Source: Allacma fusca (Eukaryota; Arthropoda; Collembola; Symphypleona; Sminthuridae). Taken from it: DNA of 64,000 nt. Under the pieces are notes generated by a model. It was given only the letters and a program-made list of their open reading frames with translations. It ran no database searches and was not told where the DNA came from. The number at the start of each line of letters is the position of its first letter. Position 1 is the first letter of the stretch. Below, piece after piece: positions 3,998 to 58,539 of the stretch. Made by a program: the position numbers and the translations under genes. The stretch covers positions 66,203,067 through 66,267,066 of the forward strand of contig OX359245.1 of NCBI GenBank assembly GCA_947179485.1. The letters are read 5' to 3'.

Positions 3998-4711
3998 CAG
4001 GTGTCCGTCTGAAATCACCTTCGTTCATCCTTCAGGAGGGGAACCGTTTCCAATTACCCGTTCCTTCATTGTTCAGTAAAATGAAGCCTTCTGAATATTT
4101 ACCCATCCTTCGCCCTTTCTTCATTCAAATCCTACTATAATCCTTCTTTCAGACTTCAAAAATATTTAAATGCCCTTCATGCGTTACCTTCCTTCCATGT
4201 TCATTCAACACAAGTCACAAAATCAGAGCTTTAAAATTCAAACTGCTTACCGCTGAAAAACTAATAATAGCTTACAATTAACTGCAATTATTGCAGAGTA
4301 TCAGTATTACTTAATGTACAGTGAAGGGAATAGAATGCTTACATGCTCCGGGTATCACGCTGCCGACGCTGCCATTGTGAGATAAGTTTTTCTAGAATAA
4401 CATTAAGTAGGTCCGCCAGAAAAATGTTTTTCAGTTGAGTAACAGTGTACGTATGTATATATAATACGGTGTACGTATACGTACATATACTGTAGTTACG
4501 GAAGGACTTTATCTAAAATATAGGAAATGGGATTACTAACGGCGTTCGAAGGCTGTAAAATTAACATGCTCCTTCGCATTCGATTATTTCTGCAAAGAGC
4601 AGAGGCCTTCGTGCAGCCTTCCTTCCGCTCCCTTCATAATTGCCAAAGCTAACGCTTAATTCGTTCAAAGAAGCCTTTTTTGAAGGAAATCCTTCGAGGG
4701 ATAGACACCTC
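3998..4711. mobile_element. Probable hAT-type MITE with CCTTC words
   Basis: The ends are inverted (AGGTGTCC at the left, GGACACCT-like GACACCTC at the right). They are flanked by TAGATTG and TGGATTG, an imperfect 7-8 base duplication. Both subterminal parts are unusually rich in CCTTC and its near variants (CCTTCATT, CCTTCGC), with little else recognisable. No coding sequence is seen. Assignment to hAT rests on the approximate duplication length, so it is tentative. Confidence 0.5.
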
Positions 4712-5299
4712 TGGATTGCAGCATACATTATGCAGTTACGTCTGCTTAGCTGAATAGTATTAAGTTTAGGATTTTAATAATTTTTTTAATAAACGAATAT
4801 GCATTATAAATTTTTTATCGTTTAGATTGCAAGAATTTATGAAATTTAGTCTTTATTAATTTTAATATTTATTGTCCAGAAAGTTAAAAATGTTGTTGAC
4901 AATGATTGTTAAGGAAAACTATATTTAAGGGCTGATCCCTTAAAGATCACAGTACCAAATTTTTATACTAAGATCCTAGTTACTAAAGGCACCCTCATGA
5001 AAAATTTCATGTAGTTCCAAGGGGTGGAACGCACTTTTCTAGCTCGCAATGCTAAATGAACGGAGGCTATGGATATTTTTTTATGAAATTGGTACCAATT
5101 TTTGTTTATTTTTGCAAAGGAATGCCAAACCTTAAGGGATATGCGATTGTAAAAATTCAAGGAGATTCGCCTTGCATTCCCATTGACTTTAAGCCTTTGA
5201 CATTCCAAGTACGAGTTTTGGTTCAAGAGTTATCTGAGAAAGTCACTTTTTGAGGTATGGGTAAAAGCATATAGGTTGCTTTTTTAGGGGACAAACCTG

Positions 5300-6261
5300 A
5301 GCACGTACACAGACCTGGGCACATCTCCTTTAAAAGCAACTTCTTAAAAATAAGGCAATCGAGATTGAGTTCCATTTGAATATGTAATAGAAGTAGAGTA
5401 ATAGAAATAGATTTCGGTACTTCGGGTTAATTCTTATATACATATATTCGTGGATAGAGGATAATTATGAAGATTTTCATATTTTATACCTACTGTACAT
5501 GCTTGTAAAATAAATAATATGAAATAATGGATATTTACGTTAAAAGGTACTTTATAAAAAGGTATTTGCCAATAGGGGCCCATCATCTATTTGAAATAGC
5601 AGGGAAAGGATACATTTACACTAAAGCCAGTGTCAGAAAATATTATGTATTCTGCGCACCCCGTGTTAGCAGGGCTTCTGTTCGGGACGGGACCGGGGTC
5701 GGGACAGTTTCGGGACAAAATATTTGTACCCAAGTTATTTCGGGACTGAATTGGGACGATTTTTTTTGTCCCGAAGACTTCGGGACGGGACGGAACAATA
5801 GATCGGGACAGAAAAATATACCTGTACAGTATACTACTGCTGTAAAAATGAATATATATGGGAATCGTTCCGTTTAAAATTTGTTATTATATATATAAAT
5901 ATTTTTTAAAGTAAAATTTCGCTATTATTTTAGGTATTCTTGTAGAAATAAAGGAATTTGGAGCATTTCATAAGACTGGGGTTATAACCGGGACGTCCCG
6001 TCCCGAGGTTTTCGGGACGGGATCGGGACAGTTTCGGGACAAAATTTTTGTCCCCATGTAATTTCGGGACTGAAATGGGACGAATTTTGTTGTCCCGAGG
6101 ATTTCGGGACGGGACAGAATTGCCACCGTGACAAAACTATTGTCCCCAGTAGAAGCCCTACCCCATGTACACCGAAAACGAGTTCCAAGTTAAATAACGT
6201 CAGGTTGAGTGCGTAAATATGCAGTTGGTTTGGTTTAGAACTGTAATCAACGAAGTCGGTA
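5300..6261. repeat. Paralogous 5' flank of unit 1
   Basis: Outside the MITE at 5667-6160, this stretch matches about 42830-43185 in order and orientation. It continues after the transposon at 11590. It is the duplicated upstream flank of the membrane-protein array and contains no gene of its own. The match lets insertion points in this copy be read against the uninterrupted copy. Confidence 0.75.
5667..6160. mobile_element. Non-autonomous hAT-like element with GGGAC words
   Basis: Inverted ends TAGCAGGGCTTCT and AGAAGCCCTA are flanked by CCCCGTGT (5659-5666) and CCCCATGT (6161-6168), an 8-base target duplication with one mismatch, as expected of hAT. The paralogous flank at 43075-43085 lacks the whole insert. 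Both subterminal thirds are arrays of TTCGGGACGGGA-like words in both orientations, around a short AT-rich core. There is no transposase, so movement would need one in trans. Confidence 0.8.
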
Positions 6262-6581
6262 CCCAGTCTGAAAACCTGAAGCGCCCAAATATCACATTTA
6301 GGGCGCCCGTCATTTTAGTGTTCGCCGTAGCCCATATGTAAGCTACTACAGTACAGGCGATGTCAAAGCGTCCATTATGGGCAAACATAAATATAGGTCG
6401 CCTGCTGGCGTCAAATTGACGTCAAAATGATTCTTATTTTCTTACGTCGCCCCCAGGCTCGCATATTGCTTCCAAAAGCATGCCGCCCCGTGATACGGAA
6501 GGGCTATACCACGCCGGGCGCATAATAAAATGATATCTAGGCGACATATGCCAAACGTGCATCTTTTAACGCTCACTTTCA

Positions 6582-8452: not shown

Positions 8453-11250
8453 ATGGCAGGATTTTCTAGAAGCGTTAAGTACCGGAAGGTATCAGCATTA
8501 TATGAGTCAATGTTAAGCGAATTAGGTTCTAATCCAAAAAGCAAACTCCTAAGCAAAACCGCAACAAAGGAGCCGGATTTAGGCTGTAGCACAAAGGCAA
8601 CTGAAATTGAAGATTTTGTTGACCATTCGAATGTTCATGTCGCAGATCTAGAATCTGACACAGCTTCTGTATCGGATTCGAATGATAAAATATTGGAGAT
8701 TGAATCTAGTATCAACGATGTTAATGAATCGAGCAGTGACAGCGATATTGCACACAACCAGTGCGATTTAAGAGACGATCTGCGCATTTGGGCAGTTAAA
8801 GGAAATATTCCTTGCGATCACGTTAACAACCTTCTCGGTGTTTTTAGAAAACATTTTCCTGATCGAAATCTCCCTAAATCAGCTGTTACACTGCTTAACA
8901 CCCAGGTGAAATATAATATTCAAGAAGTGGCTGGCGGACATTACTACCATTTTGGTCTAAAAAGCAGTCTCAAATCGGTTGAAAAATGTTTTCAAAATTT
9001 TACAGCCAACAAAATTAATTTGATTGTGGGTATTGATGGTCTTCCACTGAGTCATAGCAGTTCCAAGTGTTTTTGGCCAATACTTGGTTGCGTTAAAAGT
9101 TTAAACTTTTGCCATACCTTCGTTATTGGTATTTATTATGGAGAGTCGAAGCCAAATAGCGTGGAAGATTTCTTGTATCAATTTTGCTTAGATTTCAAAG
9201 ACATTCAAACTAGAGCATCTCGGGCGGTTGAAATTTACGGGTAAGCCCGCAAAAAGCCCGGCCCGCACGGGCTTCGAGCGGGTACGGGTAAAAATTATTA
9301 CGTTTGACGGGTTACGGGCGGGTACGGTCTTTTCATCGCGGTTAAAAAAGACCGTGAAAGCCCGTAAAAGCCCGTGAGAAATTCCATTAGTTGTGAATGC
9401 AGGAGCAGCGGTTGTGAATGTACATATACTTGAACGAATTTCAGACGTTTGCAATTTTAGCTTTTATACAAACTAAGGCTTGGTTTACGATAGAGCATCA
9501 CCTCGTGGGATATTTTAGGCCCGTGCCCGTCTGTACGACTGTTACTAAATAATAAAAGCAGGTATGCTAGAAAAGTTTTCTTGCATACTTGCCTTTGTTA
9601 TTGAGTAAGTTTCATTTCGCTCTTCATTACTGTGGAAAATTCGATTTAGTCTAGAAGATGAATCCTGCTTGTAGTTCAAGTATTTGTAATAAGAATCCAG
9701 AAGTTAACATTGTAATAAATTCAAGAACGCCACCAGAAGTGCTTAACCAAAGCCGAAATAGCTTTTGTATTGCCTTCTTAATAAACAAGGTAGTTTAACG
9801 ACTGTATGTAACGGTCAAGAACACCAATATTTTAAAATACAGTTTTTCAGTATTTAAGATGTATGGTATTTGCGGGCGGGCTACGGGCTTTTTTTAATTT
9901 TCCGGGCCGGGCCGGGCTTTTTCGATAAACATTAATTTCGGGCCGGGCGGGTACGGGTAAAACGTTACGAGCCACGGGCGGGCACGGGCCTAAAATATTC
10001 CACGGGGTGATGCTCTAATTCAAACACAGGGGATCATTTTAAATGGCAAAACGTACGACCTTATATTTGATTGTTTAATTGCTGACGCACCTGCCAGATC
10101 GTTTCTAAAATGCTGCGCTGCTTACAATGGGTACTTTGGTTGCGAGAGATGTGTGGTAAAAGGGAAATATTGCGGAAGAATAATTTTTTCTGATAGTAAG
10201 TGTCGCAAACGAACGGGCTCTTCTTTTAAATTGCTACTAGATTCCGGCCATCATAATGGAGAATCCCCACTCGTTCGTCTCAACATTGATTTAGTTTCCC
10301 AAGTCCCTCTTGACTACATGCATATGATTTGCTTAGGAGTTACGCGAAAATTGTTACGAGGGTGGGTCAAATTGTCAAAACCAATTGGCTTAAACCGTAG
10401 AAATATTAAAATTTTAAACGAAGGTTTGCACAGAATTAAATATTTTATTCCTAAAGAATTTCACAGGAAGCCACGAACTGTTTTTGAGGTAGATAGGTAC
10501 AAGGCTACAGAACTCCGTTCTTTTTTACTGTATTATGGCCCAGTGGTTTTGCGGCAAGTTTTAAGCGCAGAAAAGTATGAGCATTTTATGATGTTGAGCG
10601 TTGCAACCTATATACTTCTCAGTGAAAAAGCGCAGGATAAAGTATGGAATGATTTAGCTAGAAACCTCTTGCTCAAATTTGTTTCCAAAATTAGTAGACT
10701 GTATTCAAAAGAGTGGCTCGTGTACAACGTGCATAGTTTAATACATCTAGCAGATGACGCTTTAAAATTTGGCCCATTGGACAATGTAAGTGCTTTTAAT
10801 TTTGAAAACTTTTTGCAAGGTTTAAAACGGATGATTAGAGGGCGGCATAGCCATTTAGCACAGTGTATACGCCGAATATCGGAAATAGGTATTCAGTCTT
10901 GCAAGATTACATCGTGTCAACCAGAAATGTCAAATCGTCAGGGAGACAATACATTTTTAGACCACAATGGTGATGTTGTTCAAATTAAAGAAAGTTATGT
11001 GACCAATACGAACAGCCCTAAACTTGTGAAAGGGGTCAAATTCTTAAATGTAAAAGATCTTTTCATTGTTCCTGTACCAAGCTCTTTGCTCTCCATTTAT
11101 CTAGTAAAATATACTGAAGTTACATCCTTGTTAACATTAAATACCGTTAATCTGATAAGAAAATGTGTTTTTGTACCTTTGGAAGATGCACAACATTTTG
11201 TATGTATTCCTATGGTTGCTAATTGCTTAAATAAACGCGTTGTAAAATAA
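8453..11250 (+). pseudogene. CACTA/EnSpm-like transposase, split by a hAT insertion
   Basis: The frame 8453-9210 continues in frame at 10026-11250 once the insert and one duplicated 8-mer are ignored: 661 codons, no introns. The N-terminal 110 or so residues are acidic and low in complexity. Recognisable blocks follow: IDGLPLSHSS with FWPILG (Asp near 195), then ADAPAR (Asp near 273), a GCERC zinc-type pair, DYMHMICLGVTRK (near 349) and a late SAFNFENFLQGLKR block (Glu near 513). Such spacing of acidic residues suits a DDE/D RNase-H-fold transposase, though I infer which are catalytic. As it stands translation ends in the insert at 9242, leaving about 263 residues. No other stop or frameshift was found, so the break looks recent. 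Confidence 0.85.
9211..10017. mobile_element. hAT-type MITE inserted in the transposase gene
   Basis: Ends TAGAGCATC and GATGCTCTA are flanked by perfect 8-base duplications ATTCAAAC (9203-9210 and 10018-10025), diagnostic of hAT. The ends are packed with GGGCGGGTACGGG and CCCGTGCCCG words. A further copy of the right terminus, in the opposite sense, lies inside at 9491-9530, suggesting an older nested or rearranged structure. The middle (9540-9860) is AT-rich with no supported coding sequence. It has no transposase of its own. Confidence 0.9.
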
Positions 11251-13320: not shown

Positions 13321-13351
<31 letters not shown>

Positions 13352-15868: not shown

Positions 15869-16679
15869 TAGTGCGCCCAGTGTTTCGTTTCTGAAACGAA
15901 AATTTCCGGTTCGTTTCAGTTTGTTTCAGTTCGTCCCACAAAAATTTCAATTCAGTTTCAAGTTTAGCTAAAACGAACGTTTCAGTTCAGACTTTGAAAC
16001 AAAACGAAACATTCACACTGAAACGCGTTTGAAACGTTTCAATTGCAATATGATTCTGCCAGTAAAAATGCACATGTGACGAAAACTTTGCTTTTTCATG
16101 CTGAAAATTTCTTAGGCATGTAGACTCTATACAATATAGAATACAAGGGTGAAATCGTCTTTGGACAGCTTATGGGCTTGGGAAACTACTGAACTCAAAA
16201 ATGATATTTAGTAATAGAATATAGAATACATCTAAATCTGTATACTCTACGTAAAATCACTAGGTATCTTTTTCGCTACGTCTTGAATGTTGAAGGTTGT
16301 GCAAATTTTAATTTAACTTCCAAACACGGAGTTAACCGTTACTTTATGGGGCATGTTGGATCCGTCATTGAACATGGAAAATGCTTGGAGTTACACGAGC
16401 TACCCAAGGATAGATTTACATTTAGAAGTATGCCTGACGTCGTAGTAAACTTAGGCAGTGAATGCGGGGCCAGAGGCCATAAAGTATTTAATGTCAAGCA
16501 TTTTAAATTTTCACGCCTGAAACGATCGTTTTGCTTTTCGTTTCAGTTCACCGGTCAAACTGAAACGAACTGAAACTCTTTTTTGTGAACTTAAACGAAA
16601 CCATAATTTCAGTTCATTTTAGAGTTCAAACTGAAACGAAACAGATTTTTTGAAACGAACTGAAACAGTGGGCGCACTA
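15869..16679. mobile_element. hAT-type element with GAAACGAACTGAAAC words
   Basis: Inverted ends TAGTGCGCCCAGTGTTTC and its complement at 16662-16679 (one mismatch) are flanked by perfect 8-base duplications GTCTGGTC (15861-15868 and 16680-16687). Both subterminal parts are dense irregular arrays of GTTTCAGTTCG and its complement. Between them is a stretch with normal composition that contains an open frame (16283-16573), possibly captured sequence. It sits inside an older repeat with GGTCC/GGAAC words. Confidence 0.9.
16283..16573 (+). CDS. Open frame of unknown identity inside a hAT-type element
   Basis: A 96-codon frame runs through the non-repetitive middle of the element. Its first 70 or so residues look like ordinary protein (a GVNRYFMGHVGS block, a HELPKDRF block and a LGSECGARGH block). 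The last part is translated from the GTTTCAGTTC word array and is unlikely to be meaningful. It may be a piece of a captured host exon or of an ancestral transposon gene. I do not recognise the family, and it may not be expressed. Confidence 0.25.
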   Translation: MNVEGCANFNLTSKHGVNRYFMGHVGSVIEHGKCLELHELPKDRFTFRSMPDVVVNLGSECGARGHKVFNVKHFKFSRLKRSFCFSFQFTGQTETN

Positions 16680-16687
16680 GTCTGGTC

Positions 16688-16910
16688 TGTTCTATTCCGG
16701 TCCGAGTTATTTTGAGGAACGGAACATGTGTTCCTGTTCCAGCAATTTGTACTGACCAGATGGTTCCGGTCCTACAGTCTAAAAGACCTTGTGGTCCTGG
16801 TCCTACACTGAGAACAGATAAAATGGGCTGGTGCAGGCTGAAGGACAAGACCATTCTAAGAAATCCTGGAACATTCCGGAACAGTCCCACTCCTAGGAGT
16901 CCGAATTCGT
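16688..16910. repeat. GGTCC/GGAAC word array, outer MITE fragment
   Basis: GGTCCGAG, GGAACGG, GTTCCGGTCCT and GGTCCTGGTCC recur in both orientations. Similar words precede the nested hAT element (GTTCC near 15825, GGTCC near 15852). This is probably one older non-autonomous element split by the insertion at 15869. Its outer ends could not be fixed. Confidence 0.45.
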
Positions 16911-22535: not shown

Positions 22536-22764
22536 TCTAGTCTATTCGTTTGCGAATTTGTTCTCGCTAGTCTAGTCTAGTCCTATTCACACATTTTTTA
22601 AAATTCGATTCCTGTTCAGTGCTTAAACTAAAAAAATGCCAGGAATTGCTCCGATGTAATGGACGAGGGAATGTCCTGATCCTGGTTTTGGATTCAGAAG
22701 TTCATGTAAGGGTGATGGTTTGCGGAAAAAAAATGCTGAAGCCAGATAGCGGGATGAGGCGATA
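22536..22764. repeat. Dispersed repeat shared with 63210-63503
   Basis: Begins with CTAGTCTAGTC-like words (22565-22582) and continues through a block around ATGGACGAGGGAATG to GCCAGATAGC and GAGGCGATA. The second copy, near the right end of the window, is uninterrupted, whereas this copy is split by the pogo-like MITE. Confidence 0.65.
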
Positions 22765-23566: not shown

Positions 23567-24712
23567 GCTACATAGTGCTTACATTCTTCTAACTTTCGCC
23601 GTCCGTATATTTGTAAATAAGTTGTTGTAGATATTTTCAGCTCAATAAGGTTTAAAAAAATTTCTTACAAATTTCAAGGCTTTATAAATACGAGTAGTAT
23701 TGTAATATATCAGGTGACCATAGTCCTGTTCTATCCCCTAAAGCCCTCATAAGGAAGGGAGTCATGACATGGTTTCCTCTGCTTGAAGCAAATTCTTTTC
23801 CAGATTTTCTTAAATTTACTTCATTGGTCTGTTTCAATACTTTAGTTCGTAAAGCTCGAAACGTCAGAGGATTTTGGGTTTTTTTCTGAATATTTGCTAT
23901 TTTGGATATTGGATATAATATAGGATATATATTGGAAGGATTTCATAGGTTTGTACAATGCCAATTGTGGACAAAACCAGAAAAGACACGGAGCAAGATT
24001 TTGGAAATTATGTTCGAGAGCAAAATTGAGAAAATTGTAGTTTTTTTTTGAACTTTTGAAGTTCGACATTTTTAAATAGACAGTCCGGAGCATGGTTATG
24101 GCTGGGTTTGTAGCATTTTTGTTATCATTTGAGTCAAATATCAACTTCCCGGAACAAAACTTGCATCCTCATGAGGAATCATAAATGCGAGCAAAGCTCA
24201 AAAATTATTTTTAAATGATTCAATGGAATATATTTGTCTCCTTTGCTTCATTTTTACGCCACATGTTCTTCTGAGGTTCCTGAAGCATAATTTCGCAGGT
24301 CTTGTTCCGGATGTTTCCTGTCATATACATATAAACGATTCTCAACATTAAGATCTAAGGAAGGATTTATAGAAAGTTCATGAAAGGTTTGTTTGAGAAT
24401 CAAAAAAATTAAGCCAATTTTCTAAAAAAATTTTGAAATGAATAGGCTAAAGATACTGGGAGAACCATATATTTTATGAGTCAATCCCTTATGTGGCAAA
24501 AGATGGGTGACAATTACGTGTGCAATTATGGGTGACAAATGATAATGGTTACTCTGATTTTGAAATCAAATTGTTGCATATGTAACCGAGTTGATGATAA
24601 GGCTTCTAGATCAGACCAGAAACCAACATTTTCAAAACTTCACATGACTTGTCGTCGGCTGGTTCAAATGTGGCTGGACATAAAATTATACAATGAGGCA
24701 TTTGCCACCCAT
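23567..24712 (+). pseudogene. Membrane-protein array copy 2b, severely truncated
   Basis: Only the last 80 or so bases of exon 2 remain (23567-23649), with one base missing in the CCGTCCGTAT stretch and an in-frame stop (AAATAAG). A long intron 2 related to that of copy 1 follows (about 23700-24609). The first 100 or so bases of exon 3 (24610-24709) are nearly identical to copy 1, through the DIKLYNEAFAT block. The gene then breaks into a hAT fragment. It is a non-functional relic, probably from the same ancestor as copy 1. Confidence 0.8.
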
Positions 24713-25308
24713 GGAACAAAAAAGCGCTTTTAACAGGACGCTTTGAATTGTTTTAAATCAAAGGCCTATTTAAGCAGACGTTTTGATTTTAGTGACAATA
24801 TTGTTCTGAAAATGAAACTACTAAATTTGAAATCATAGGAATTCTTAGTATCCATTGCTTATTTACTAAATCTTGCCGATGCACTCGGTACCTTACCGAG
24901 GACATATATTTTGCTTACTTCGTCAAAGTTATGAGTTTCTGATTGTGATTAGATTGGTGGGTGCAAAGTGGGTTGAGTTTTCAAGAATGATATCATGAAC
25001 TATTTAATTTTGTATCGTTCGTGGTGTCAATTCCTGTTAGCAACGCTCCTGTAGAAAGGTATTTCAGCCTAATGAAGAAAGTTTGGACAGCCGAGAGAAA
25101 CTTCATGCCAACGGAACTTGTGAAGGCAGAGCTTCAAGTCAGGCTTAATTTGACCTTTTCGTGTCGTGAATTTTTCTTTTTTGAACAAACCGGAAAACCA
25201 GAAAATGGTATTAGATGTCAGAAAGGCTGAAAAATACAATTATGAATCATTTATACGTAAAAAAATCCTTTTGTCCCGGATTGACGTTTCGGAAAAGTGG
25301 GAACCCTA
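24713..25308 (+). pseudogene. 5'-truncated hAT transposase fragment
   Basis: This matches about 55515-56153 of the larger hAT remnant: an AAAGCGCTTT start, the GCCTATTTAAGCAGACGTTT block, the C-terminal dimerisation region (NAPVERYFSLMKKVWTAERN, 25039-25098), and the right end GTGGGAACCCTA. The left terminus is missing. Immediately after the right end come ATCCGGGACGTCTG bases that resemble the inverted left subterminal sequence of the same family, so the junction looks rearranged. It truncates copy 2b at its left side. Confidence 0.75.
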
Positions 25309-30690: not shown

Positions 30691-31601
30691 CATGCTTGCA
30701 ACAAGTTCGTTCAGTGAACTAGTTCCTGAACTGAATGAACTGAACTTTTCAAAAATAGTTAACATTTTGAGTGAACATGAATGAACGGAAATAAATTAAT
30801 AGAATAAATGCCTGAACGTGAACTGAACTATTTTTCACTTTGAATGAACTTGAATTACTAACGATAAAAATAGCAAATAGTTGAACTGAACTTAGTTGAA
30901 CTTCAGGAAATAATAGAACGTGTAGTATACGATATTTTATTTGACTCCACCTTCCCACCTGCAAATACGACGCGTTTATCGGGTTTGTTGTTTATGATGT
31001 GCTTTTACTATTTGTACTGTGCGATTTATCTTTTAAATCCAGAGTGCATGAACAACACAGGCATAATTGGTGCACGCCGAAGTGAATTTCGACTTTTTGT
31101 TTATTTTGTAATGTATTTGCTAAGTTTGATTTCTTGTCCAAGAAAATCCGGATTTAATCAAAACTAGTATTTAAAAAAAAGCAGCAAATTATATTCTCTA
31201 TTTAGTTTACCTGAGAGTAGAAACCAAGGGTAAACCAGACAATGAATTGAATTTTTCTACAATGCCGAAATTGGGATTTGTTTTCCCTTAATATTATTAA
31301 ATACTCGGTTAAATAACCGGTTTTTAATACCAAATAAATTATTAGCTTAAATGCAGAACTAAATACATAATTATTAAAAATGAGCGGAATTGAACGACTA
31401 ACTGATTTAACTGAACTTGAACTGATATAATTGCAAAACTAATTTGAACTGAACTGAACGAGCTGTAAAACAAATTACAGTGAACTAGAGAGAACGTCAT
31501 ATTTCTATTTGTACCCGAACTGAGTTGGAATGAATGCGTTTGACATCCAAGGAATAGTGAGCTGAACTTGAATTGAATTTTACCACGAAGTTGCAAGCAT
31601 G
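30691..31601. mobile_element. hAT-like MITE with GAACTGAAC words
   Basis: Inverted ends CATGCTTGCAAC and GTTGCAAGCATG are flanked by CTGGACC on both sides (30684-30690 and 31602-31608), a 7-base or nearly 8-base duplication. Both subterminal parts are packed with GAACTGAAC, GAATGAAC and GTTCAGTGAAC words. The middle (31000-31350) is AT-rich and has no supported gene. It lies inside an older repeat whose words are GGTAC/GTACC. Confidence 0.75.
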
Positions 31602-32083
31602 CTGGACCTGTACCTGTACCTGTACCCAAATACTCAGGTACTACCCGTACCCAAGCGATGCACTCGTCCCTGGGAACATCAGCAAATGTACTCCATTTTA
31701 GTTAGTAGTGTTACCAGTTTATTCCTGCGCAATAATTTATTATCAAATTGTTCCCCAATGCTAAACCCACCAAAGCAACCCGCCTTATTAAAATGTCACA
31801 AGAATAATCCATATAGCTTCAATATGGTGACCTCTTGGGAAAAATTATTATAGTTTCGTACAAGTACTTAGTTTGCAAAACAATAGATGTACAAGCTATG
31901 TATATATAAAACAGTTTTATTTCAGAAAATGTGAAACCTCGCACTCAGTAACAGTCAAACCTCAAAAAAGAGCTAAATAAGGTAAAACGTTTCCAATAAA
32001 ACTTCATTTGGTGACACCAACCAAGCGGATCAACATTGGAGTGTAAATTTACCGACTCCGGTTGACTCCAATAACCCGTATAC

Positions 32084-33406
32084 CAAGGCTATAGATAGTA
32101 ACAGGTTCGGACATAGCGTATGCTGAAACAACCCCCTCGCTGTGACGTCATCAAAAGTCATTTCTTACTACACATACTACACAAATATGTAAACAATTCG
32201 CAAATTAGAGTGAATAAGATTTTTAATTATTTTAAAGTATTACAATTAAAATTAAAATTAACCCACGACAACAACAGAGATATTAACAAATTGTTTCCTT
32301 TTCACAAAATTAATCCGTGGCTTCTGCTTTTTAGTAGAGAATTAGTTAAGATTAAAAATCCCAGCTGACACTTGCGTTTCTTGCTGTTTCTGTAAATTTG
32401 GATCTTGCTTATTTCATGAATGCCTTTAAATTGAATAACGACACCGTCTGAAACTCGATGTGAACACCAAATCCCGACTTATTATTATTTTTTGAATCAA
32501 ATTGAAAACAGGAAGTTTGGTAAAAATCTCTTCGTCAAAAGTCAACTTGCTCGTTCATCTTCATAAAGTTTTGTTATTGCAGTGGAATTTGCAAATATTC
32601 CTTGGTCACATGATAGGTTTTAGTACTTAGGTACTTGATTGTCAATGCCTTTGAAATATCCCCTATGCTCCAGTTGACACTTTTGTGACCACTAATTAAT
32701 TTATCTTGGTCGGGGGAAAGAGATATTTAAGTGGTTTGTGTTTACTTAATGCAGCTTTTAGACTTAGAACTTTAGAAACACACAAATAATCTTCACGATT
32801 TCACTTCTCTGTTTTGAAATGATTGATATACGTTTCTTCACAAGCTAATTTTGATCACCTCGAATTTGTTATGCTTTACAATAAGTTGTTAATTTCAGCT
32901 CTAAATTCTTTTTTTGTGTAGACAGTTACTTCGAATTAATTGAAAGGAAACTGGCTGAGTTCTGAATGGAAACAAATTGGAAACGGCCGTTCTTTTTAAT
33001 ATTTTTTAGGTGTAAAGTCCAAAAATTAAATTTTTAAATCTCAGACATAATCACTTTCACTGAAATAATGTGAACAAATCCTAGCTGTAACACAATTTAC
33101 ATTCTCTTTCCTCTTACACTTACCAACCCAAACCTTACCTAATTGAGAATTTTTAGGGAACTGGTGACTCTGTTTGTGACTTGAACTCTGTTTAATATTT
33201 TAATGTTTTACATTCTGCTATTGCACAAATAAAGTTCACATTAAATAATTTTATTTGCTTCTTTACACAGATTGTCAATTAAAAACAAGTAGAGCGCTCG
33301 CTGAGATCACTTTTACTGACGTCACAGCCCCCTAAATTTGTCCACCTCTCCGCCCTATTCATTCTTACATGCGATGTGGCCGAACCTGTTACTATCTATA
33401 GCCTTG
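32084..33406. mobile_element. hAT-type element, 1.3 kb, with long terminal inverted repeats
   Basis: Perfect 8-base duplications CCGTATAC (32076-32083 and 33407-33414) flank ends beginning CAAGGCTATAGATAGTAACA. These are identical for 27 bases and similar for about 90. The inner part of each arm carries TGTGACGTCA next to a CCCCCT run. The interior (32200-33250) is AT-rich with only short frames and no transposase, so it is non-autonomous. No nearby gene is interrupted. Confidence 0.9.
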
Positions 33407-44030: not shown

Positions 44031-44597
44031 CACCCGGTGAAAACCCGGCTTTTTAGTAACAATTGAATCTGCTGTGAAACCTTTATTTATGTACATATTC
44101 TATTATATTTATACATATACTATCTATCCCAACTCATCAAATTCAATAAACGTGCACTCACGGAGCAAGTCTACTTATTGGCTCTGAAAATGTTTGACGA
44201 TAAACTATCAAGCTTAAGGGATCGTTTCAAAATTTTAAGTATGTGTAATTACGTATTAAATATAGTGAACGATTATTTAGCTTTAGCATGAATTTACATG
44301 AAAGAATTGCTTAATACTCTACGCAACGTCAAACATGCTTGCCACCTATCCGTCTTAAATTCTATTCAAGTAAAATTACCGGATTATTTGTAATTTCTGA
44401 CCTGCCCGAAACCCGAAATGAAAAATAATTGCAGGCCAAAGCCCGATCTTAACCCGGTTTAACTGTTTTATTGCAGCCCGAACCCGGTCGGAGCCCGATG
44501 TAAGTTCGTATTTGCAGCCTGAACCCGGCCAAAAAACCGGCCGGGTCGAATTCGGGCAGGCCCAAATCAAAAAGCCCGCTTTCGAGCCCCACATCTA
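44031..44597. mobile_element. Probable MITE with CCCGGTC/AGCCCG words at the break of copy 5
   Basis: The left side reads CCGGTGAAAACCCGGCTTTTT and the right side, read inwards, GGCTCGAAAGCGGGCTTTTT. These are imperfect inverted ends, with CCCGAACCCGG/GCCGGGT-like words near the right end and an AT-rich middle. A target duplication is not convincing. Directly beyond it begins the 5' flank of the next unit, so the element marks a deletion or recombination junction. Confidence 0.5.
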
Positions 44598-48611: not shown

Positions 48612-51035
48612 AACCATTTCTCTATTGTCAATTGACTTACATTTGGACATTTTGACCGAATAAGTATTCTGTAAAATAGGCGTAATCTAATTATGTTACA
48701 CATGTATGCGTAAACATTCCTACTAGCGCTGGTTTAAAAGTTAAATTATACACTTGTCACCGCAAGGACGGATCCTTTTGTCGCACTAACAGATTTTCAT
48801 GCTACATCCTACAAAAATTCATCTACTCTAGATCAAAAATTTCAAATTTCAAATAGTATTTAAGTTTTGGCGGGATATTCAAGAACACCATTTCCTCTTG
48901 ATATACACACACATTCTAATTGGTTCAGGAGTAGAAACCAGCCTCAACAGGGCTCGAGTTTAGTTATATTGCAAAGTAACATAAAATTGCACAGTTAATA
49001 CTACAAATCCGGTGTCTCACATCAACTACTAAACTTACGAAAGCTTTCATTAATAATAATTTTTTTCAATCAAACATGACGATAAACAATATTTTTGAGT
49101 AACTCAGTGTTGACAGAGAAACCGAACGACATCACAAATGATTTTCTAGACCTGTGATATGTAATAATATAAACTGAGTTTTAAGGTAAAGTTCATTGAA
49201 CATGTATATTCACTTTATGTATAATCAACATACTAGTTAGTTATCATATGCGGCAAAATTATTTTTATGTTAAATAATCAGTTTGAAACTCTCCCTAGCA
49301 CAAACTTAGGAAGTTGTTGAATTCCCAATCATATTTGTTGCTTCAACGGCTTTTTAGCTTTCCACTGAACATTGCTCTGCTGGCACTTCCAGCCAAAGGT
49401 GGGCAAAATAGTTTGCCTCGCCAATGTCCTAACTATATATTTAATACCCGATCCTGCTTACATATTGCCTACATTAATGTCGCTAAAAAATATACCGACA
49501 TATACGGAAGGATTATTCGCAAGCCTACCTAGATGCCTATTTTTTTTAAAGAAAACTATAGCCTACATATATGCCTGCATATTATTGAAAAACTCCACAG
49601 CCTACATTTACGCCTACATAGTTGTAGGCTACATTTGCGCCTATGAGTAATATGTAACAGTTTATGGGAAATCTATGCTGATATAGGAACGCCTGAGTTG
49701 TCTCTACACAAGGATTTCCCCTACATATGTCAAATTGGGGTTCTACCGGCGTTATACAATTTATTAATTCATCCCAAACTTAGGTATATATATTATACAT
49801 AATTAAAGTAGCTCCACTAACAATAAAGGAGTTATGTATAGTATGTATGATAGCGCCAGTATATAGATGTGTTTGTAGTTCCCCTCCGTCCTTGACATCA
49901 CCTGGGAAAACTTAAATGGGGAAACAAACATTATAACATTTATCACTGTTAGGTAACTTGCTGCAAGATTTTTGAAGTGTTATTTTCCTTAGAACATGTA
50001 CATAACCCTCAGGATAACTAATTTGAATACTTCGTGAATATTTAACAAATTTTTAACTTCTAACTGCACTTAGAAACAACATTCATTTCCTAGCTATTCA
50101 TCAATTTTAGTAACAAAGATAAGGAAGCACTATTTACACAGTGAAAAATGTCCACAGCATAGTAAGTACATCAACCTAACATATAAATGCATGTAAAATG
50201 TGCGCCTACATTTAACCTACATTTGTATGAATAAGTTATAAGGCCCAACACATTTTATAGGCAATGTACACAACAAGTTATCCTCCTATCCTATAATGCG
50301 TACAATTAACATGAGAATTTTTGCCCACCTTTGCTTCCAGCACAAGTGAGTTGTTCTAGAAATGATGGAGTGTGTTTATTTCTAGAATAAATGATTTATA
50401 CAGGATATTTTTCAAAGTAGCCGTTAACACTAGCTCTTTACCATCCGTGTCGTAAACATTAACTGTATTTCATTGCAAACTTTGTCCATTTGAGAAGTGA
50501 AAATCTTTGCTAATCCAGTTCTATTTTAAATTTTATAAAGTAAAATAACTCGACCCTAAGCTTCGCACCTATTTTCATGCCTTCATTTTAAATACTAAAA
50601 GTACAGTAAAAATAAAAGGTTGTCAAAAACAGCTTTGTTTTCGTTCGTAATTATTAAAATTACGCCTTAAAACTATTATGTACTAACCAAGCTTTTTGTA
50701 TGCTATACCATAAAACTGCATGATAACTATTGTCTGAAATATCGCCAGCTGATTTGAAGATATTTGCAATAATATCGTGGAGCCATTACATTGCTTTAAT
50801 GCAATGTATGTATTGTAATATGCATATTTCATATTTTGTGGTATCAATGGTCATAACTTTGTCTGATTCCTTTGATGAACAACATCATATGTATGCTTCT
50901 GTTTTATAAATTGGTGGCACTGTATATTCGTAGTTTGTAGCGGTACAGTAGAGTAGTACCTAGTGCTAAATTATTATTGACTGAGAAGTACCTGAAGGTT
51001 TAGATATTTTACATTCAGATTCAGGTATTCATCCA
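48612..51035. other. 3' flank of copy 6 and non-coding DNA
   Basis: 48612-49260 matches 62432-63140 after copy 7. GCCTACAT words recur at 49440-49650 and again near 50190-50230. No supported gene. Confidence 0.5.
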
Positions 51036-51897
51036 GATTGTACTCGGACCAGCTCAGTTCAAAACCGAAAATTCTGATTCGGTTTAGTTCAGTTTGATTC
51101 ATTATAAACAGAGTTCCGTTCAGCTGTTGAACTGAACTGAACAGTTCGATTCAGTATTTGAATAAAACTGAACCATATAATGCAAACTGCAGTTCAAACG
51201 GTTTGCAAACGGGACTCCTGCCTGGAAACGCCGCCACCAACGTACAATCTTATCTTTCAATCCCATATACTTTTATTTAACGAATAATGAACATTTGATT
51301 AGCTACTTTATTAGTATAAGTAATTTTTCTTTTAATAATTCTATGGGTCATTGCTGCGGCCGGAACAATCACGGGGTTAAAGAACTTGCATTTTATATTT
51401 TCTTTAAAATTTCAACAGCTAGATACTTTTGAGTTGGTTTGATTACAGAGCCAAAAAAAATTAAAATGGATACGAATCCTAAGGAAAATACAGACACTGA
51501 AGTCGTCCAAATCTGTGAAAGGAAGCAATGGATAACTAAACGTTGATTTTGAAAAAGGACCATTCCAGAGTACGCTACCATTATCAAGAACATATCATTT
51601 TTGTATTCTCCAGTTTACTGATTGCTATGGTCAATGCGATTAAAAATAGGTTAAGAGGAAGAAGAAATCAGTTTTTTCTCTACATGTGTACACCCGCAAT
51701 TATTATCACTTAGTATTTACCAAACACTGCGACTGAATTGTTTGATCCACCAATTCAGTTCAGTTCATAGTATAAAACTGAACTAAACTGTTTTTGCTTG
51801 AACTGAACCGAAACCGAATTTTCGTTTCAGCGCACTGCTCAAACTGGACTGCACTGCAAATTTTGAATCGAACTGAACTGTTCCGAAAAAAACCCAG
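51036..51897. mobile_element. Possible MITE with GAACTGAACTG/CAGTTCAGTTC words
   Basis: Left words CAGCTCAGTTCAAAACCG and right words CGAACTGAACTGTTCCGA form imperfect inverted ends, with many CAGTTCAG copies at 51050-51200 and 51750-51890 around an AT-rich core. No clear 8-base duplication was found. It resembles the word type of 30691-31601, but the terminal sequence differs. Confidence 0.5.
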
Positions 51898-52276
51898 TGT
51901 AAATTATTTTGCCCAACTACCTGGGTGGTCCAAATTATTTTTGGTCAAAAACCTGGGTAGCCCATATTCGTATTGCCCAACTACCTATGTAGCCTAAATT
52001 GTTTTTGCCCAACTACCTGGGTAACCCAATTATTTTTGCTGAACTACCTATGTAGCCAAAATTGTTTTTGCCCAACAACCTGGGTAGCCCAAAATCAAAT
52101 TGCCCAACTACCTGAGTAGCCAAAATTATTTTGCCCCACTACCTATGTAGCCTAATTTGTTTTTTCCCAACTACCTATGTAGCCTTATTTGTTTTTGCCC
52201 AACTACCTGGGTAGCCGAAATTATTTTGCCCAACTACCTATGTAGCCCAAATTATTTTGCCCAATTACCTATGTAC
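51898..52276. repeat. Minisatellite, 31-32 base unit, left block
   Basis: About twelve diverged copies of a unit with the core GCCCAACTACCTATGTAGCC followed by an AAATTATTTT-like spacer. It resumes at 53125-53320 after an insert containing a GIY-YIG coding region. The open frames reading through it encode repetitive sequence only. Confidence 0.9.
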
Positions 52277-53124
52277 TTATTATTATTATGGTTCTCAAAT
52301 TATTCCACTGCCACCTATGAAATCTTTTCGCCGGGCCCGAACTTAAAGCAAGTACTTGTCCGCGCATCAATTACCAAAACACCTTTACCAACAACACCAG
52401 GCACATTTCCGTGCAAAAGAGGTAAACGATGCGTCACCTGCAAACATACTTTGAAACTATCTACGGTGACAAACTTGAAGAGGACAATACATCTCAAACA
52501 AGAATTTACATGTGAATCAACGTCGTTGATATACGCTATTAAATGCAACAAATGTCCTGATGTAATATACATAGGGCAAACGGAAAGACATCTTGGGGAT
52601 AGATTTGCGGAACACAGGAGGGATGTGTTGAATAAACAGTATAAAAATGTTTCCCAACATTTTAATCTAACTGGACATAGCGTGGATGATATGCTAGTTA
52701 CTGGATTGAAGTACGCTTCAAGAGATGAAAAAGTCAGAATTGAACCCGAAAACCGAATGATCCATTTCTTCAATTCTAATGCATTACCTGGACTAAACAT
52801 CAAATTTACATATTAAGGAAACATCGAAACCTCAGGACGAAAGTTCGACGGGTGTGGCAATCCCGGGGTTATCTTAGCCAAAAATTTTTTAATTGCCTTA
52901 ACTAATTCATATTTTTAAAAAAATAGTTTATTATGATTATTTTAAATAATCGAAAAATCAATAATTTCAATTTTTCAATTTTTATTGATTGTAGTATGCA
53001 TTATATTGAATGTTACTACTAGTATATCATTTGCGTGACGAAGAGTAAAAGCTCGAAACGTTGCTGCGAATAAAATATAAGCCTTGTGTTAAAAAGTGAA
53101 CTTCTACCCTTATTTAATATATTA
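52277..53124 (+). mobile_element. 5'-truncated Penelope-like element fragment
   Basis: The insert splits the minisatellite and carries a GIY-YIG endonuclease frame plus about 300 bases of 3' sequence. ATTACCTATG occurs at both borders and could be a target duplication, but it is also part of the minisatellite unit, so this is ambiguous. No reverse transcriptase domain is present. The trailing GTGACGAAGAGTAAAAGCTC part is non-coding. Confidence 0.65.
52310..52816 (+). CDS. GIY-YIG endonuclease domain of a Penelope-like retroelement
   Basis: The element-derived part of the frame starts near 52310 (the upstream part of the frame is minisatellite). It shows a Cys-rich block (C-K-GKRCVTC), then FTCESTSLIYAIKCNKCPD, the nuclease signature VIYIGQTERHLGDRFAEHRRD with the catalytic-type Tyr, Arg and His, and further on a QHFN..GHS block and a Glu in RIEPENRMI. 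The frame ends in KFTY and stop. This matches the C-terminal endonuclease of Penelope-like elements. It is fused in frame to repeat sequence, has no reverse transcriptase and is probably not functional, although the nuclease domain itself is undamaged. Confidence 0.7.
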   Translation, partial: ATYEIFSPGPNLKQVLVRASITKTPLPTTPGTFPCKRGKRCVTCKHTLKLSTVTNLKRTIHLKQEFTCESTSLIYAIKCNKCPDVIYIGQTERHLGDRFAEHRRDVLNKQYKNVSQHFNLTGHSVDDMLVTGLKYASRDEKVRIEPENRMIHFFNSNALPGLNIKFTY

Positions 53125-53325
53125 CCTATGCAGCCTAATTTGTTTTTGCCCAACTACCTCGGTAGCCCAAATTATTTTGCCCAACTACCTATGTAGCCTA
53201 ATTTGTTTTTGCCCAACTACCTGGGTAGCTCAAATTGGTTTTGCTCAACTACCTGGGCAGCAAAATTTCGTATTTCCCAACTATCTTGGTCGCCAAAATT
53301 CGTATTGCCCAACTATCAGCTTGCT
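53125..53325. repeat. Minisatellite, 31-32 base unit, right block
   Basis: About six to seven units continue the array of 51898-52276 (core GCCCAACTACCTGGGTAGC). The last units are the most diverged. Confidence 0.88.
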
Positions 53326-54356: not shown

Positions 54357-56153
54357 TAGGGTTCCCAGACGTCCCGGAATGCCCGGGACAGTCCCGGAAT
54401 GCCCGGGACAGTCCCGGAATGACAGTCGTTGTCCCGTGTCCCGGAAGGGTGTATTCCGGGACACGTGAATGTCCCGGAAACGTCGAGCTCAAAAAGTTGT
54501 GAAAATTATTAGAGTTTTTAAGATAAAAATAAAATATTTCGTTGCAGAGGAGCTCGATTCAAACGGTAGCATCATATGCCATCTACATAAAACTAATAAA
54601 ATCATAAAATTGTGATTACAAGCGTAACAAAATTGCTTAAGCATCAGGTAATAATTAAAAAGGTCTAGGTTTTACAATTCTATATGCGAAGAGGCTGTCA
54701 ATTCAAAAAATTGGTTACGTCGAAATGGCAAAGATAACCAGACCCCTGCTAGGATTTTTGTGTGTAAAGCGACTTTCTCTGTGAAGTATGAAGAATTTGG
54801 GTATGTTAAATCTCACATGTAAAGTTCCTAAAAACCTAGAGAAAACAGGTGCTGAAACTTAAAAAGTTAAGATTTTTTTAAACTGAAAAATCTGGAGACG
54901 ATTAAAACTTCAACATATTTGGTGTTATAGTGCAAACAATGCGACCGTAAATTATGGTCGCCAAAATTGTGTTTTAGAAATTCCAGGAAGAAAATCCGTC
55001 AATTGTTGCTGCTAATTGCAAATATCACATTATACACAACGCTGTATAAATGCATGCAATAAATTATCAATGGATGTTGAAGGCTTTAGTTTTAAAGGTT
55101 TTTAGCGAATCTAGCTCGTCTGCGCAGAGACTGGACTCTTTAAAACAGTTATATGAATTTGTGGATGTGGCTTTCCTAACTTCCAGCACTGGACATATTC
55201 CTTTCTAATAGGTCAGCTTTGAAGTCATATTTTCTTTTGAAGGAACAAAGTGACTGCCTTGCTGTTAATCGCAAGGTTGTATGTCATACCAGCAATGAAG
55301 TTGCTGCGAAAGTAGAATGCCTAACCGAATGTTACCTATATATTGTGCACATTATTGTACAATAAATGAATTTGCCCATTTTAATGTTAAAGTGGAGTGT
55401 AATAATTGTACTTCTACGGAAGTTTACGCCATAATGAACTCTCTTCTGGAAAGTCCTGTAAACCGATACGATAAATTTTACGGAAGTAGCGCTAATGCAA
55501 TTCTGAAAAATTTACCCCCGCAACAAAACAAAAGCGCTTTGAACAGGAAGGTTTGGATTTTTTTGAAATCACTGCAGACCTATTTAAGCAGACATTTTGA
55601 TTTCAGTGATATTAATTTTTTTGAAAATGGAACTATTAAATTTGAAATCAGAGGAATTCTTAGTATCTATGGCTTATTTACTAAATATTTACGTTTCACT
55701 CGACGAAATTAAACGAGGACCAACTGTACAATGAATTTTGCTTAATTCGCCAACTTTGAGTTTTTTATTGTGATCGGTGATTGTGAGATCGGTCGGTGCA
55801 AAGTGGGCTGAGTTTTTAAGATAGATCATTGTCTGAATTATTCAAGCTTGTAACGTTCGTGCTATTAATTCCTGTTAGCAACGATTTTGCAGAAAGCTAT
55901 TTCAGCCTAATGAAGAAAGTTTGGACAGCTGAGAGAAACGTAATGTCAACAAAACTTGTGAAGGCAGAACTTCAAGACAGGCTTAATGTGCCCTTTTCGT
56001 GTTGTGAATTGGTTTCTTGTTTGAACAAACCGGAAAACAAAATGTTATTAGATGCCAAAAAGGCTGGAAAATACAATTAGGAATCGTGTATACGTAAACA
56101 AAATTGAAAATTATTTTGTCCCGGAATGACGTTTCAATAAAGTGGGAACCCTA
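54357..56153 (+). mobile_element. hAT transposon remnant, 1.8 kb
   Basis: Inverted ends TAGGGTTCCCA and TGGGAACCCTA are flanked by perfect 8-base duplications AGCACAGG (54349-54356 and 56154-56161). The left end contains three tandem copies of a CCCGGAATGCCCGGGACAGT-like unit. The interior carries a decayed transposase. A truncated relative lies at 24713-25308. Confidence 0.92.
54900..56080 (+). pseudogene. Decayed hAT transposase
   Basis: Across stops and frame changes, hAT blocks can be read: NCKYHIIHNA (about 55014), LKVFSESSSSAQRLDSLKQL with a following YEFVDV (about 55096-55170), then an open stretch 55317-55710 and, in another frame, the C-terminal dimerisation block SYFSLMKKVWTAERN...TKLVKAELQDRLNV (about 55893-55988). 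The N-terminal BED-type zinc finger region is not visible. At least four stops occur before 55310. The protein cannot be active. Confidence 0.8.
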
Positions 56154-56161
56154 AGCACAGG

Positions 56162-57321
56162 GCTTTTACTAGTTAACTTTTAATAACCACAACAATAGAC
56201 CGCCTATGTAGCTAACCGGTCAGTGAGAGTAACTAAAGTAATATGAGAGTAATTCACTTAGCTTAACTTTAACAAGAAAATAACATGTACATACATACTC
56301 ATATCCTCAATTTCTCACACAGGTATTGTGCTACTGTTCTTGAAAAAGATTTGAAGCTACAACTGTTTTCATGAGTAGTGATTATAACAATTCAGAAAAA
56401 TACTTGCAAGAAAAATACTGCACCTGAAGTACCTGACTCCTTCGCCGGGTACTCCAGTAAATCATTTTATATGGAGCATGTGGGTATTATTTATTCTTGT
56501 ACTGGTACTTGGCCAACTCTACCAAGAATGTTTACTTGCTTGAGAAAACATATGGCGGTTGCAATATTGTTTACCATATTGAATTTTATGCAGTAAATTT
56601 AAAAGAAATTTTAAAAGGTACTTCATTAGAGAGGTGTTTGAAACTTTCCAAGTACTTAATTATTAACAAAACTTGCAAATAAAATTTTTTTTCGCTAATG
56701 TACACATCTAAATAATAGAGGATAACCAAAAGATATGTACTTTGTTTGTTTTTTTCCAGAATGTAAGGCCATTAAATGGATACACTAAAACTAAATGTTG
56801 AGTCACAAAAACTCGATACCTACTTAACGTTCACACGTATTCCAAGGTTGGGTTCTAACGTAAATACGGGCAGTTCAATATTTACCTGTATATTAACCTT
56901 CATTTCAAATCTTTTTTCAATAAAGTGGATGCAATTGTATCTTAATTACGCGGAAAACATTTACCTAATACAATTTTTTTAGATGAATAATATACGGCAT
57001 ACCGGAATTTTCGAAATAGTGGGGGGGCAACACTTTTTAATCAGCTTTAATTACTTTGCAAGTGGCCACATACAAAAGTATGTGTACTTATACATATAAA
57101 AATACCCAATATTTTGCGTTAGCTAGCTCATGTAAAAGCATGTAAATCTACCAATTTGTAAAAACATATTTTTGTTTTAAAAGAAAACGCATTCACAAAA
57201 GATACCAGCACAATCTCATATGTATATTAGAAACTTTCTCTTATAAACACTAAATACTAGCTATATTTTATGGCTTTCAAATAGAGATAACAAAGAATCG
57301 TGGCAGTGTAGTTCTGGGAAT
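56162..57321 (+). repeat. Distal 5' flank of unit 7
   Basis: 56370-57310 matches 44930-45815 upstream of copy 6 (for example the GTGGCCACATACAAA and AGTGGGGGG blocks). The 56160-56370 part resembles 42170-42220. No gene is supported. Confidence 0.65.
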
Positions 57322-58539
57322 CAGAGCTGCGCTCAAGTATTTCAAGTCATGGTCAAGTTCGGGTCATGGTCAAGTAAAATATAATGGATACTTGAACATT
57401 CAAGGCATGGTCAAGTTATTTATTCTCCTTGACCCTGAGATTTGAAATCAAGTAGTTATCATGGTCAAGGCAAAAAATTCTACTTGAGAGTCAAGTCATG
57501 TTCATGGTCAAGTAAAAATGTATAAATCCTTGACCATGAACCATTAATAATTATTTCAAGTACTTATTCAAGTAACGAAACGTTACGCATATCGAAGTTG
57601 TGGCACTATATATTTCAATAGGTTTTCTTTCATAATGTTATCGTTACTCCGAGACTCCGTATCCATACATGTTCTTCTAAACTACATATTTTTGGGTTAC
57701 GATTCAATATCTCTAGATATTTGAAAGCCATAGCTGTAATAGTGAACGAAAGAAAACGAATATAAAAACTTTGGAGCAGCACCTATGAAAGCAACAATGT
57801 TCAATGTTCGATTGTTGTATAAAATAAACGCGTTGTTAATCAATCAAGTTACTTAAATCCAAGTACTCTTTTCATTCTAAACAATTTAACATCTGTAAAA
57901 CGTTAAACACTACCACATAAGCCAGTTTGTTTCATTAACAGGGTGGACGCTGAACTGTAGATATTTTCAGTGAAGCACAACCCAAACTTGAATGTTAGCG
58001 TAAGTAATTATTATTAACAGGAAAATTCAATGGGAAATGATTTACTTACTTCTAAAAGACTGTTTACCTTACAATTAGCAGAGACTATTCGTAGTTTCTC
58101 GTGATTGAAGGTTGCCTAAAACTAAAACACAAGACATTAAAATATCCAACTGAAGCAGCAACTCAAAATTTACTTGGAGAAGCTTGACAATTGTGAATAA
58201 TATTGTTATTTGCTAAGTTTTAACCATAAATGGTGTACTTGGTGTATTTTAAGTGTGAATACTATTTTTCTATTTCTATTTTTTTAAAAATTTGACAGTT
58301 CAAGTCAAGTTCAAGTTCGGATCATGGTCAAGTCATGGTCAAGTCAAGAGTTGTCCCTGCTATACTTGACCAGGTTCAAGTTACGCGGAAAGTACTTGAA
58401 TACTTGACCCTGAATTTTCAAGTAATTGTCTGACCATGAACCGTCAAGTTCAAGACCGTCTGAAAAACCTACTTGACTGTCAGGGTCAAGTCAAGTTCAG
58501 GGTCAAGTTTGGGATTTACTTGACTTGAGCGCAGCTCTG
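57322..58539. mobile_element. hAT-type MITE with TCAAGTCATGGTCAAG words
   Basis: Inverted ends CAGAGCTGCGCTCAAGT and ACTTGAGCGCAGCTCTG are flanked by perfect 8-base duplications CTGGGAAT (57314-57321 and 58540-58547). The paralogous flank at 45816-45823 has a single CTGGGAAT and no insert. Some 200-250 bases at each end are dense arrays of TCAAGT, GGTCAAG and CATGGTC words. The middle (57570-58290) is AT-rich with no supported gene. Confidence 0.92.

Follow-up and report, generated by a model that had tools for sequence, protein, structure and literature searches.

Arrays of one short word, different from family to family, lie at the ends of most hAT-like transposons that we found in a 64,000-nucleotide stretch of chromosome 1 of the springtail Allacma fusca (hereafter the window), and we consider it probable that these words are transposase docking sites, which have grown in part by local duplication and have drifted together with the transposase. 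An earlier note on the same DNA had pointed out nine such elements (E1 to E9); we add the hAT-like E10 and E11 and an element named P1, and place most of them in the context of genome-wide searches over the assembly of 392,743,791 bases. Labels such as L067 denote transposase-linked loci or stretches read in the genome.

For each element, the commonest 6-mer was counted on both strands of the two ends (up to 250 bp each, with bounds a few bases off the final coordinates) and compared with 300 doublet shuffles. Eleven of the 12 elements tested (E1 to E10 and P1) exceeded every shuffle, so that the arrays reported earlier are borne out at all nine places, with E1 and E8 the weakest. The best 6-mer occurred 28 times in E7, 19 in E2 (CGGGAC), 16 each in E4 (GTTTCA) and E5, 10 each in E6 and E9 (ACTGAA), 8 in E3, 7 each in E10 and P1, and 6 each in E1 and E8, while interiors held 0 to 2 copies, E2 and E8 having almost no interior in which to count words. 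The array of E10 is denser at its left end, and E6 carries nine copies of CGGGAC in its left 250 bp and one in its right. Random pairs of stretches drawn from the rest of the window (n=1000) gave a 99th percentile of 6 and a maximum of 7, so that on this second control alone E1, E8, E10, and P1 have weak arrays.

The elements are of hAT type in most cases. Elements of the hAT superfamily have inverted tips beginning CAG, TAG, or CAA, and CACTA elements have CACTA tips and 3-bp duplications. When we scanned the window for 12-bp inverted tips (at most two mismatches) with a perfect flanking 8-bp repeat, eight pairs were found, compared with a mean of 0.27 and a maximum of 3 in 30 Markov-resampled windows. 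Six of these pairs are credible elements, namely E3, E4, E6, and E7, together with E10 and E11; the pairs at 42935-43477 and 57565-57859 (the latter within E7) were taken as chance. Duplications of E1, E2, E5, E8, and E9 were assessed by eye. Altogether, 8-bp duplications matching at seven or eight bases flank E1 (GATTGCAG on both sides, 8/8, with a shortened left tip), E2 (CCCCGTGT/CCCCATGT, 7/8), E3 (ATTCAAAC, 8/8), E4, E6, E7, E10, and E11. Thus, the 8-bp duplications claimed for the noted elements were recovered in six of the nine and were missing by eye in the window copies of E5 (no in-register duplication, CCTGGACC/CTGGACCT), E8 (6/8 at best), and E9 (none, with an unclear tip). Short tips of hAT type were found as CAGAGGTGTC, TAGGGCTTCT, TAGAGCATC, TAGTGCGCCCA, TAGGGTTCCCA, CAGAGCTGCGCTC, and CAAAGGTGGGC, and E5 has CATGCTTGCAAC; neither feature of CACTA elements was seen in these elements, which carry hAT-type tips and 8-bp duplications. 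For E2 and E7, paralogous sequence within the window shows the empty site (near 43072-43079 and at 45816-45823, respectively), and E3 interrupts an open reading frame. A simple-repeat artefact was rejected on the duplications, the empty sites, and the copies described below.

To place the words beside their enzymes, we searched the genome with the hAT dimerisation family; 860 places came up as candidates, of which 150 were scored, every one above the cut-off, and 40 of these 150 were read. The left end of E1 matches the 3' end beside L067 (88% over 162 bp), and around L067 lies a complete element of 3,791 bp with a perfect duplication (CTGGGAGG), a perfect tip, a hAT dimerisation region (8.6e-17), and a 5' end that aligns with the right end of E1 (73% over 324 columns). 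Along this partner, CCTTC is concentrated at the two ends, with counts per 250 bp of 13, 1, 1, 1, 0, 0, 0, 0, 1, 1, 0, 2, 0, 6, 16, and 1. Similarly, E5 matches at both ends (70% identity across 205 columns and 69% across 247) the element around L079, a 2,314-bp element with a 7/8 duplication (CTTTTACG/CTTGTACG) and 9 of 12 tip bases that encodes zf-BED (8.3e-7) and Dimer_Tnp_hAT (1.3e-16). A third complete element (L069 and L106; 3,610 bp, duplication GTAGAAAG) carries AAGGC at both ends. By comparing near-identical copies we could place the 3' boundary in several further families; 5' tips of further families were not found in the flanks examined. Finger-like residues were seen by eye in the E1 partner, L062, and L069, and no BED-like region was recognised in the upstream stretches of L068 and L085.

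The earlier note had called all nine elements miniature inverted-repeat transposable elements (MITEs). By sequence, E1 and E5 do descend from transposase-coding elements, and E2 to E4 and E7 to E10 are short and multi-copy. On the other hand, E6 is a decayed transposase element rather than a MITE, with a Dimer_Tnp_hAT remnant (0.0051, below the cut-off) that rises above the cut-off in a second, truncated copy of its family in the window (2.1e-5). Most of these elements are best read as non-autonomous or decayed springtail hAT transposons.

Words are kept from copy to copy where we counted them. Eight of the nine noted elements (E2 to E9) recur genome-wide, and family-specific words were confirmed among copies of the two families that we counted. 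For E7, the youngest family among those seen, a first look gave 1,052 candidates, of which 40 were scored. The 14-bp tips and the 8-bp duplication were without mismatch in 30 of the 30 loci read (the window and 29 others), and ACTTGA occurred 10 to 12 times in the left and 16 to 18 times in the right 250 bp of every one. For E3, 20 copies were fetched and filtered for tips and for a duplication with no more than one mismatch; 15 passed, 14 with a perfect duplication, and five were dropped; these and the window copy carry GCCCG 6 to 8 times at the left and 8 to 11 times at the right end. Searches with E2, E4, E5, E6, E8, E9, and E10 each scored 40 places, the window itself counted in for E2 (others 90-94% identical), E4 (78-93%), E6 (83-99%), and E10 (82-89%). 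Among the matches listed, 19 other copies of E5 span 30691-31601 to within about 5 bp, 18 other copies of E8 share both boundaries (within 3 bp) and 14 more run from 44047 to 44589, and 33 copies of E9 begin and end at the same places to within 8 bp.

Many of these hATs have arrays, though not all. When we tested the 13 transposase-linked 3' ends whose tip is defined, eight exceeded all 200 shuffles (L067, L068, L085, L069, L065, L086, L084 with 15 CGGATA, and L095 with 10 AGTAAG); the remaining loci read are further copies of the same families or have no defined end. These 13 ends, together with L062 and L100 (the latter without a defined tip), gave 15 families and 105 pairs. Across these, pairs with more similar dimerisation regions also had more similar word profiles (Mantel rho 0.38, p=0.0005, 2000 permutations), in support of word change that tracks transposase divergence. 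At the same time, the word can change between relatives whose tips stay alike: L062, L069, and L075 are 68-77% identical and have similar tips (CAGTGATGGGCA, CAGTCATGGGCA, and CAAAGATGGGCA) at a word similarity of 0.08-0.19, and the tip of E10 (CAAAGGTGGGCA, word GCCTAC) resembles that of L075, whose own word is weak.

This correlation could reflect common descent of the non-coding ends alone instead of co-evolution between protein and site, a possibility to which we give real but minority weight and which denies only the co-evolution part, being compatible with docking sites. The families are not independent, and four of the 105 pairs have alignable ends, including the same-word pairs L067-L068, L067-L085, and L068-L085. 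However, the 101 pairs without alignable ends still show a word similarity of 0.12 at 45% or more amino acid identity (n=33) compared with 0.05 below it (n=68; p=0.004, with non-independent pairs), a modest effect, and L079 and L086 share a word (0.61) without alignable ends. In the four BED-like regions that we could define by eye, identity was below that of the dimerisation region in all six pairs, from 35 versus 57% to 38 versus 39%, four regions being too small a sample for judging co-evolution. The arms race proposed earlier found no support, as nothing in the data, which include the BED-like regions read in four transposases, points to a host or rival driving the change.

We next consider whether the words could be products of mutation alone, multiplying by slippage or unequal exchange and hitch-hiking with successful elements without a function, which we regard as unlikely. 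Growth of this kind is seen, in line with the slippage suggested earlier: E6 holds a 20-bp tandem unit, the E1 partner has by eye some seven repeats of a 29-bp unit that is not in E1, one E7 copy has gained a 22-bp insertion of words, and the window E7 has lost sequence between words. The number of E6 units seems to vary among copies, since of its 40 best matches two cover the window copy from its first base whereas 28 begin further in, at base 35 or 55, inside the 20-bp tandem stretch. Arrays thus grow partly by local duplication in these cases. In addition, E7 copies mutate alike in end words and spacers (0.25 versus 0.24%), which fits mutation alone and is also expected because the copies no longer evolve as a family. 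On the other hand, many ends hold both word orientations with unlike spacers, complete elements have arrays at both ends and none between, and binding to such words has been measured in other hATs.

The comparison of homologous ends also bears on this question, and words were retained better than spacers in two of three such comparisons. In E5 and its partner, 87% of word columns matched compared with 67% outside, a difference equalled by two of 26 distinct control 5-mers, one of which is the shifted word. In L068 and L085, the values were 97 and 60%, equalled by none of three distinct controls. Mutational expansion alone does not readily account for words that persist at a spacer identity of 60-67%. 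When ends with the same word were deliberately aligned without homology, no excess appeared (42 and 42%; 54 and 50%), which indicates that the aligner alone is not its source. The third comparison, of E1 and its partner, gave 91 versus 80%, yet 18 of 21 distinct control 5-mers did equally well and the difference shrank away from gaps (92 versus 87%, p=0.06), so that this pair, whose word is not specially conserved, lends no support to word constraint and agrees with expansion alone.

Several further observations also weigh against the docking-site reading. Five of the 13 transposase-linked 3' ends were not above shuffles (L075, L074, L076, L063, and L079), no array was seen by eye in the stretches read of L077, L094, L096, and L099 (the last partly N), and the array test of E11 was not above shuffles (best 6-mer four copies, p=0.18). 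The membership of E9 in the hATs is not established by tips or duplication, and Pfam found no BED domain in the E1 partner, where the finger-like pattern was seen by eye. The pairing of each word with a transposase-coding hAT, which the earlier note had named as a check, was achieved for E1 (CCTTC) and E5 (GTTCA), and among the 40 transposase stretches read none was found for E2, E3, E4, or E7. The candidate partner of E10 was chosen on tip resemblance: its end and that of L075 were rejected as a match, since the similarity (60% over 138 columns) is confined to the tip and blastn gave no match at 1e-4. Finally, P1, apparently no hAT element, has an array as well, which means that word arrays are not confined to hATs.

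The earlier note had also held that the same arrays found outside transposon ends would count against its idea. Interiors are nearly free of words. Arrays do lie outside the listed elements, with GTACC at 30480-30690, GGTCC/GGAAC at 15800-16900, CTAGTC near 22500 and 63230, and a 32-bp minisatellite, and these may or may not derive from the ends of other transposons. Similar-word arrays in several superfamilies (the pogo-like P1) and in stretches unassigned to elements could suggest that the words are sites of host DNA-binding proteins, such as silencers or chromatin factors that help insertion, but this seems very improbable because host proteins would favour shared words, whereas the words differ by family and follow the transposase lineage.

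The words also appear to have a direction. They had been described as bidirectional, and both orientations do occur, but one dominates in most elements and is the same at both ends. Judged by the commonest non-palindromic 6-mer, the two ends agree in 11 of 13 elements (E1, E2, E5, E6, E7, E9, E10, P1, and the three complete elements) and are opposite in E3 and E4; the commonest 5-mer gives nine the same, one opposite, and three ties. If E1 and its partner are taken as one case, and E5 and its partner likewise, agreement is found in nine of 11 (a hand-calculated one-sided binomial of about 0.03). Thus, the tips are inverted while the words mostly run in the same direction along the element. Since some single ends hold few words (the right ends of E6 and E10 and the left ends of E1 and L067), we treat polarity as a lead and not as a result.

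Together, these findings suggest a model in which the end of each family consists of a short tip for cleavage and an array of one short word, the word being most likely the docking site of the family's own transposase, which probably binds it with the BED zinc finger at its N terminus. Non-autonomous copies would keep the arrays of a transposase-coding parent, as the sequences of E1 and E5 indicate, and may be mobilised by it. Duplication and deletion between words, of the kind seen in individual copies, would add sites to the arrays and remove them, and diverging transposase lineages may carry word drift along while tips can stay similar, consistent with the correlation over 15 families. The shared orientation of words at both ends could allow the transposition complex to distinguish its left from its right end. 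What we infer from these patterns is binding, cross-mobilisation, selection for site number, and end discrimination.

More tentatively, it is possible, if somewhat less likely than otherwise, that these hATs form a radiation in which specificity is set by a fast-changing word, recognised by the BED finger, and the cleavage tips remain compatible. New words would then arise by small steps and allow escape from the transposases of relatives, and head-to-tail words would mark the ends. Such steps would be represented in one related group by CCTTC, GCCTTC, AAGGC/CAAGG, TAGGAA, and perhaps the E10 word GCCTAC. If true, the radiation would be a readable record of transposons and transposases parting in specificity.

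Table 1. Transposable elements of the window, with the word of each array.
Element	Position	Strand	Word	Remarks
E1	4000..4713	.	CCTTC	non-autonomous copy of a hAT; shortened at the left tip, CAGAGGTGTC at the right
E2	5667..6160	.	CGGGAC	left array is a direct repeat of the right array
E3	9211..10017	.	GCCCG and GGGTACGGG	second, internal tip at 9491
E4	15869..16679	.	GTTTCAGTTC	tips TAGTGCGCCCA; duplication GTCTGGTC, 8/8
P1	22765..23529	.	CTATAAGGGA	inverted arms, TA duplication; empty site read by eye
Truncated second E6-family copy	24709..25308	+		right end only; 80% over 629 columns
E5	30691..31601	.	GTTCA (GAACTGAAC)	tips CATGCTTGCAAC
E11	32084..33406	.		hAT-like, no word array (contrast case); perfect tips; duplication CCGTATAC, 8/8
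E8	44032..44597	.	GCCCG/ACCCGG	left tip lost
E10	49394..50333	.	GCCTAC	duplication CTTCCAGC, 8/8; absent from the earlier list
E9	51040..51886	.	GAACTGAAC	superfamily unestablished
E6	54357..56153	+	GTCCCGGAATG, mainly left end	decayed hAT transposase element; duplication AGCACAGG, 8/8
E7	57322..58539	.	TCAAGT(CATGG)	duplication CTGGGAAT, 8/8

Some of the elements have surroundings or relatives that deserve mention. E4, E5, and E7 are embedded in other word-rich stretches, namely GGTCC/GGAAC (15800-15868 and 16680-16900), GTACC (30480-30690 and 31602-31660), and GGTTC/GGTCC (45780-46060), respectively. A copy of the E4-flanking stretch adjoins the transposase in L092 (90% over 221 bp), where the GGTCC array is an insertion, since near-identical relatives continue differently from its start. 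Three overlapping matches of E2 with a spacing of about 338 bp (contig C12, 41959211-41960375) suggest a head-to-tail multimer formed via its direct-repeat ends. A second family with the word of E7 lies at about 2276-2513 of L070, with a related but different tip (CAGTGCTGCGATCGGGTCAAGT) and 71% identity over 249 bp with the right end of E7, and adjoins an unrelated transposase element. Array signals near L070 (ACTTGA), L075 (ATCGAA), and L083 (CTCAAA) lie beyond the copy-defined 3' boundary and were not taken as words of those loci. P1, which we take to be pogo/Tigger-like from its tips, was inserted at a TA in the first of two copies (70%) of a CTAGTC-rich repeat at 22505-22770 and 63203-63509, the latter being its paralogous stretch. 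The large reading frame split by E3 (8453-11250) has a weak DUF4218 match (2.4e-4, below the cut-off) and is perhaps the protein of another DNA transposon. Pattern scans of viral contigs for two of the tips gave one locus each, gene-dense, phage-like by eye, and without arrays, which we regard as chance matches.

Elsewhere in the window, a tandem family of multi-exon genes, hydrophobic and membrane-protein-like by eye, occupies 19207-20597, 26779-28192, 36942-39742, 47079-48611, and 60935-62431 and self-aligns repeatedly across the window; when five exons of this cluster (from 36942-39742 and 60935-62431) were scanned with Pfam, none gave a convincing match. The 32-bp minisatellite (GCCCAACTACCTATGTAGCC core; 51901-53315) forms two blocks, 51901-52275 and 53123-53315, and the stretch between them holds a frame that is GIY-YIG-like and Penelope-like by eye, with no Pfam match. 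A 178-bp inverted repeat, 96% complementary with arms 244 nt apart, lies at 3147-3746, and a reverse transcriptase fragment (RVT_1, 2.8e-18) at 59250-60071.

The literature that we found treats subterminal repeats mostly one element at a time. Since many hAT families with their own words, some with partners, are present here in one genome, the joint change of protein and site becomes directly addressable. The series bears on the lack of cross-mobilisation among related elements, on the ties between MITEs and transposases, and on the origin of the diverse motifs of BED-type host DNA-binding proteins; should polarity prove true of more families, hAT complexes would have a sequence rule for the pairing of left and right ends. 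Among the papers listed in the literature searched, none concerns these arrays in springtails or word drift along transposase relatedness, with most subscription journals and Repbase outside its coverage.

Large arrays as such are not new, and the earlier impression that so extreme an expansion is unusual has to be given up. Hermes of the house fly has 17 and 14 AAG(T/C) sites at its two ends, near the tips and unequally arranged, which are read by BED domains (PMC10368747); sites 2-7 of the left end are given as antisense and sites 1-5 of the right end as sense, the reference direction being unstated in the part of that text available to us. It is alike in having many subterminal sites and differs in that its site is shorter. 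The ends of Ac of maize carry multiple AAACGG repeats that are bound by the transposase, and non-autonomous relatives keep them (PMC3260210). Ac/Ds thus resembles our elements in the repeated hexamer of both ends, but it has one word, whereas here there are many words per genome, several tied to their own transposase. In Herves of Anopheles, the subterminal motif CGATTCAT is repeated at both ends and is sufficient for transposase binding (PMC3143072); its motif calls per end are few, its sequence is another, and its binding was measured, while our words are known from sequence. Four hAT-encoded proteins have motifs that match their own subterminal regions, and BED-Hermes proteins (CGGBP-type hATs and their domesticated descendants) have diverse 8-mer preferences (PMC8097297); word drift within one genome and MITE arrays are not described in the sections of that report available to us. 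Kat1 of Kluyveromyces lactis, a domesticated hAT, is a single domesticated system. Altogether, subterminal repeats of hATs were already known, and Allacma fusca offers an unusually rich natural series of them, to which the pairing of word and transposase in this genome, word drift at similar tips, and head-to-tail polarity are the additions.

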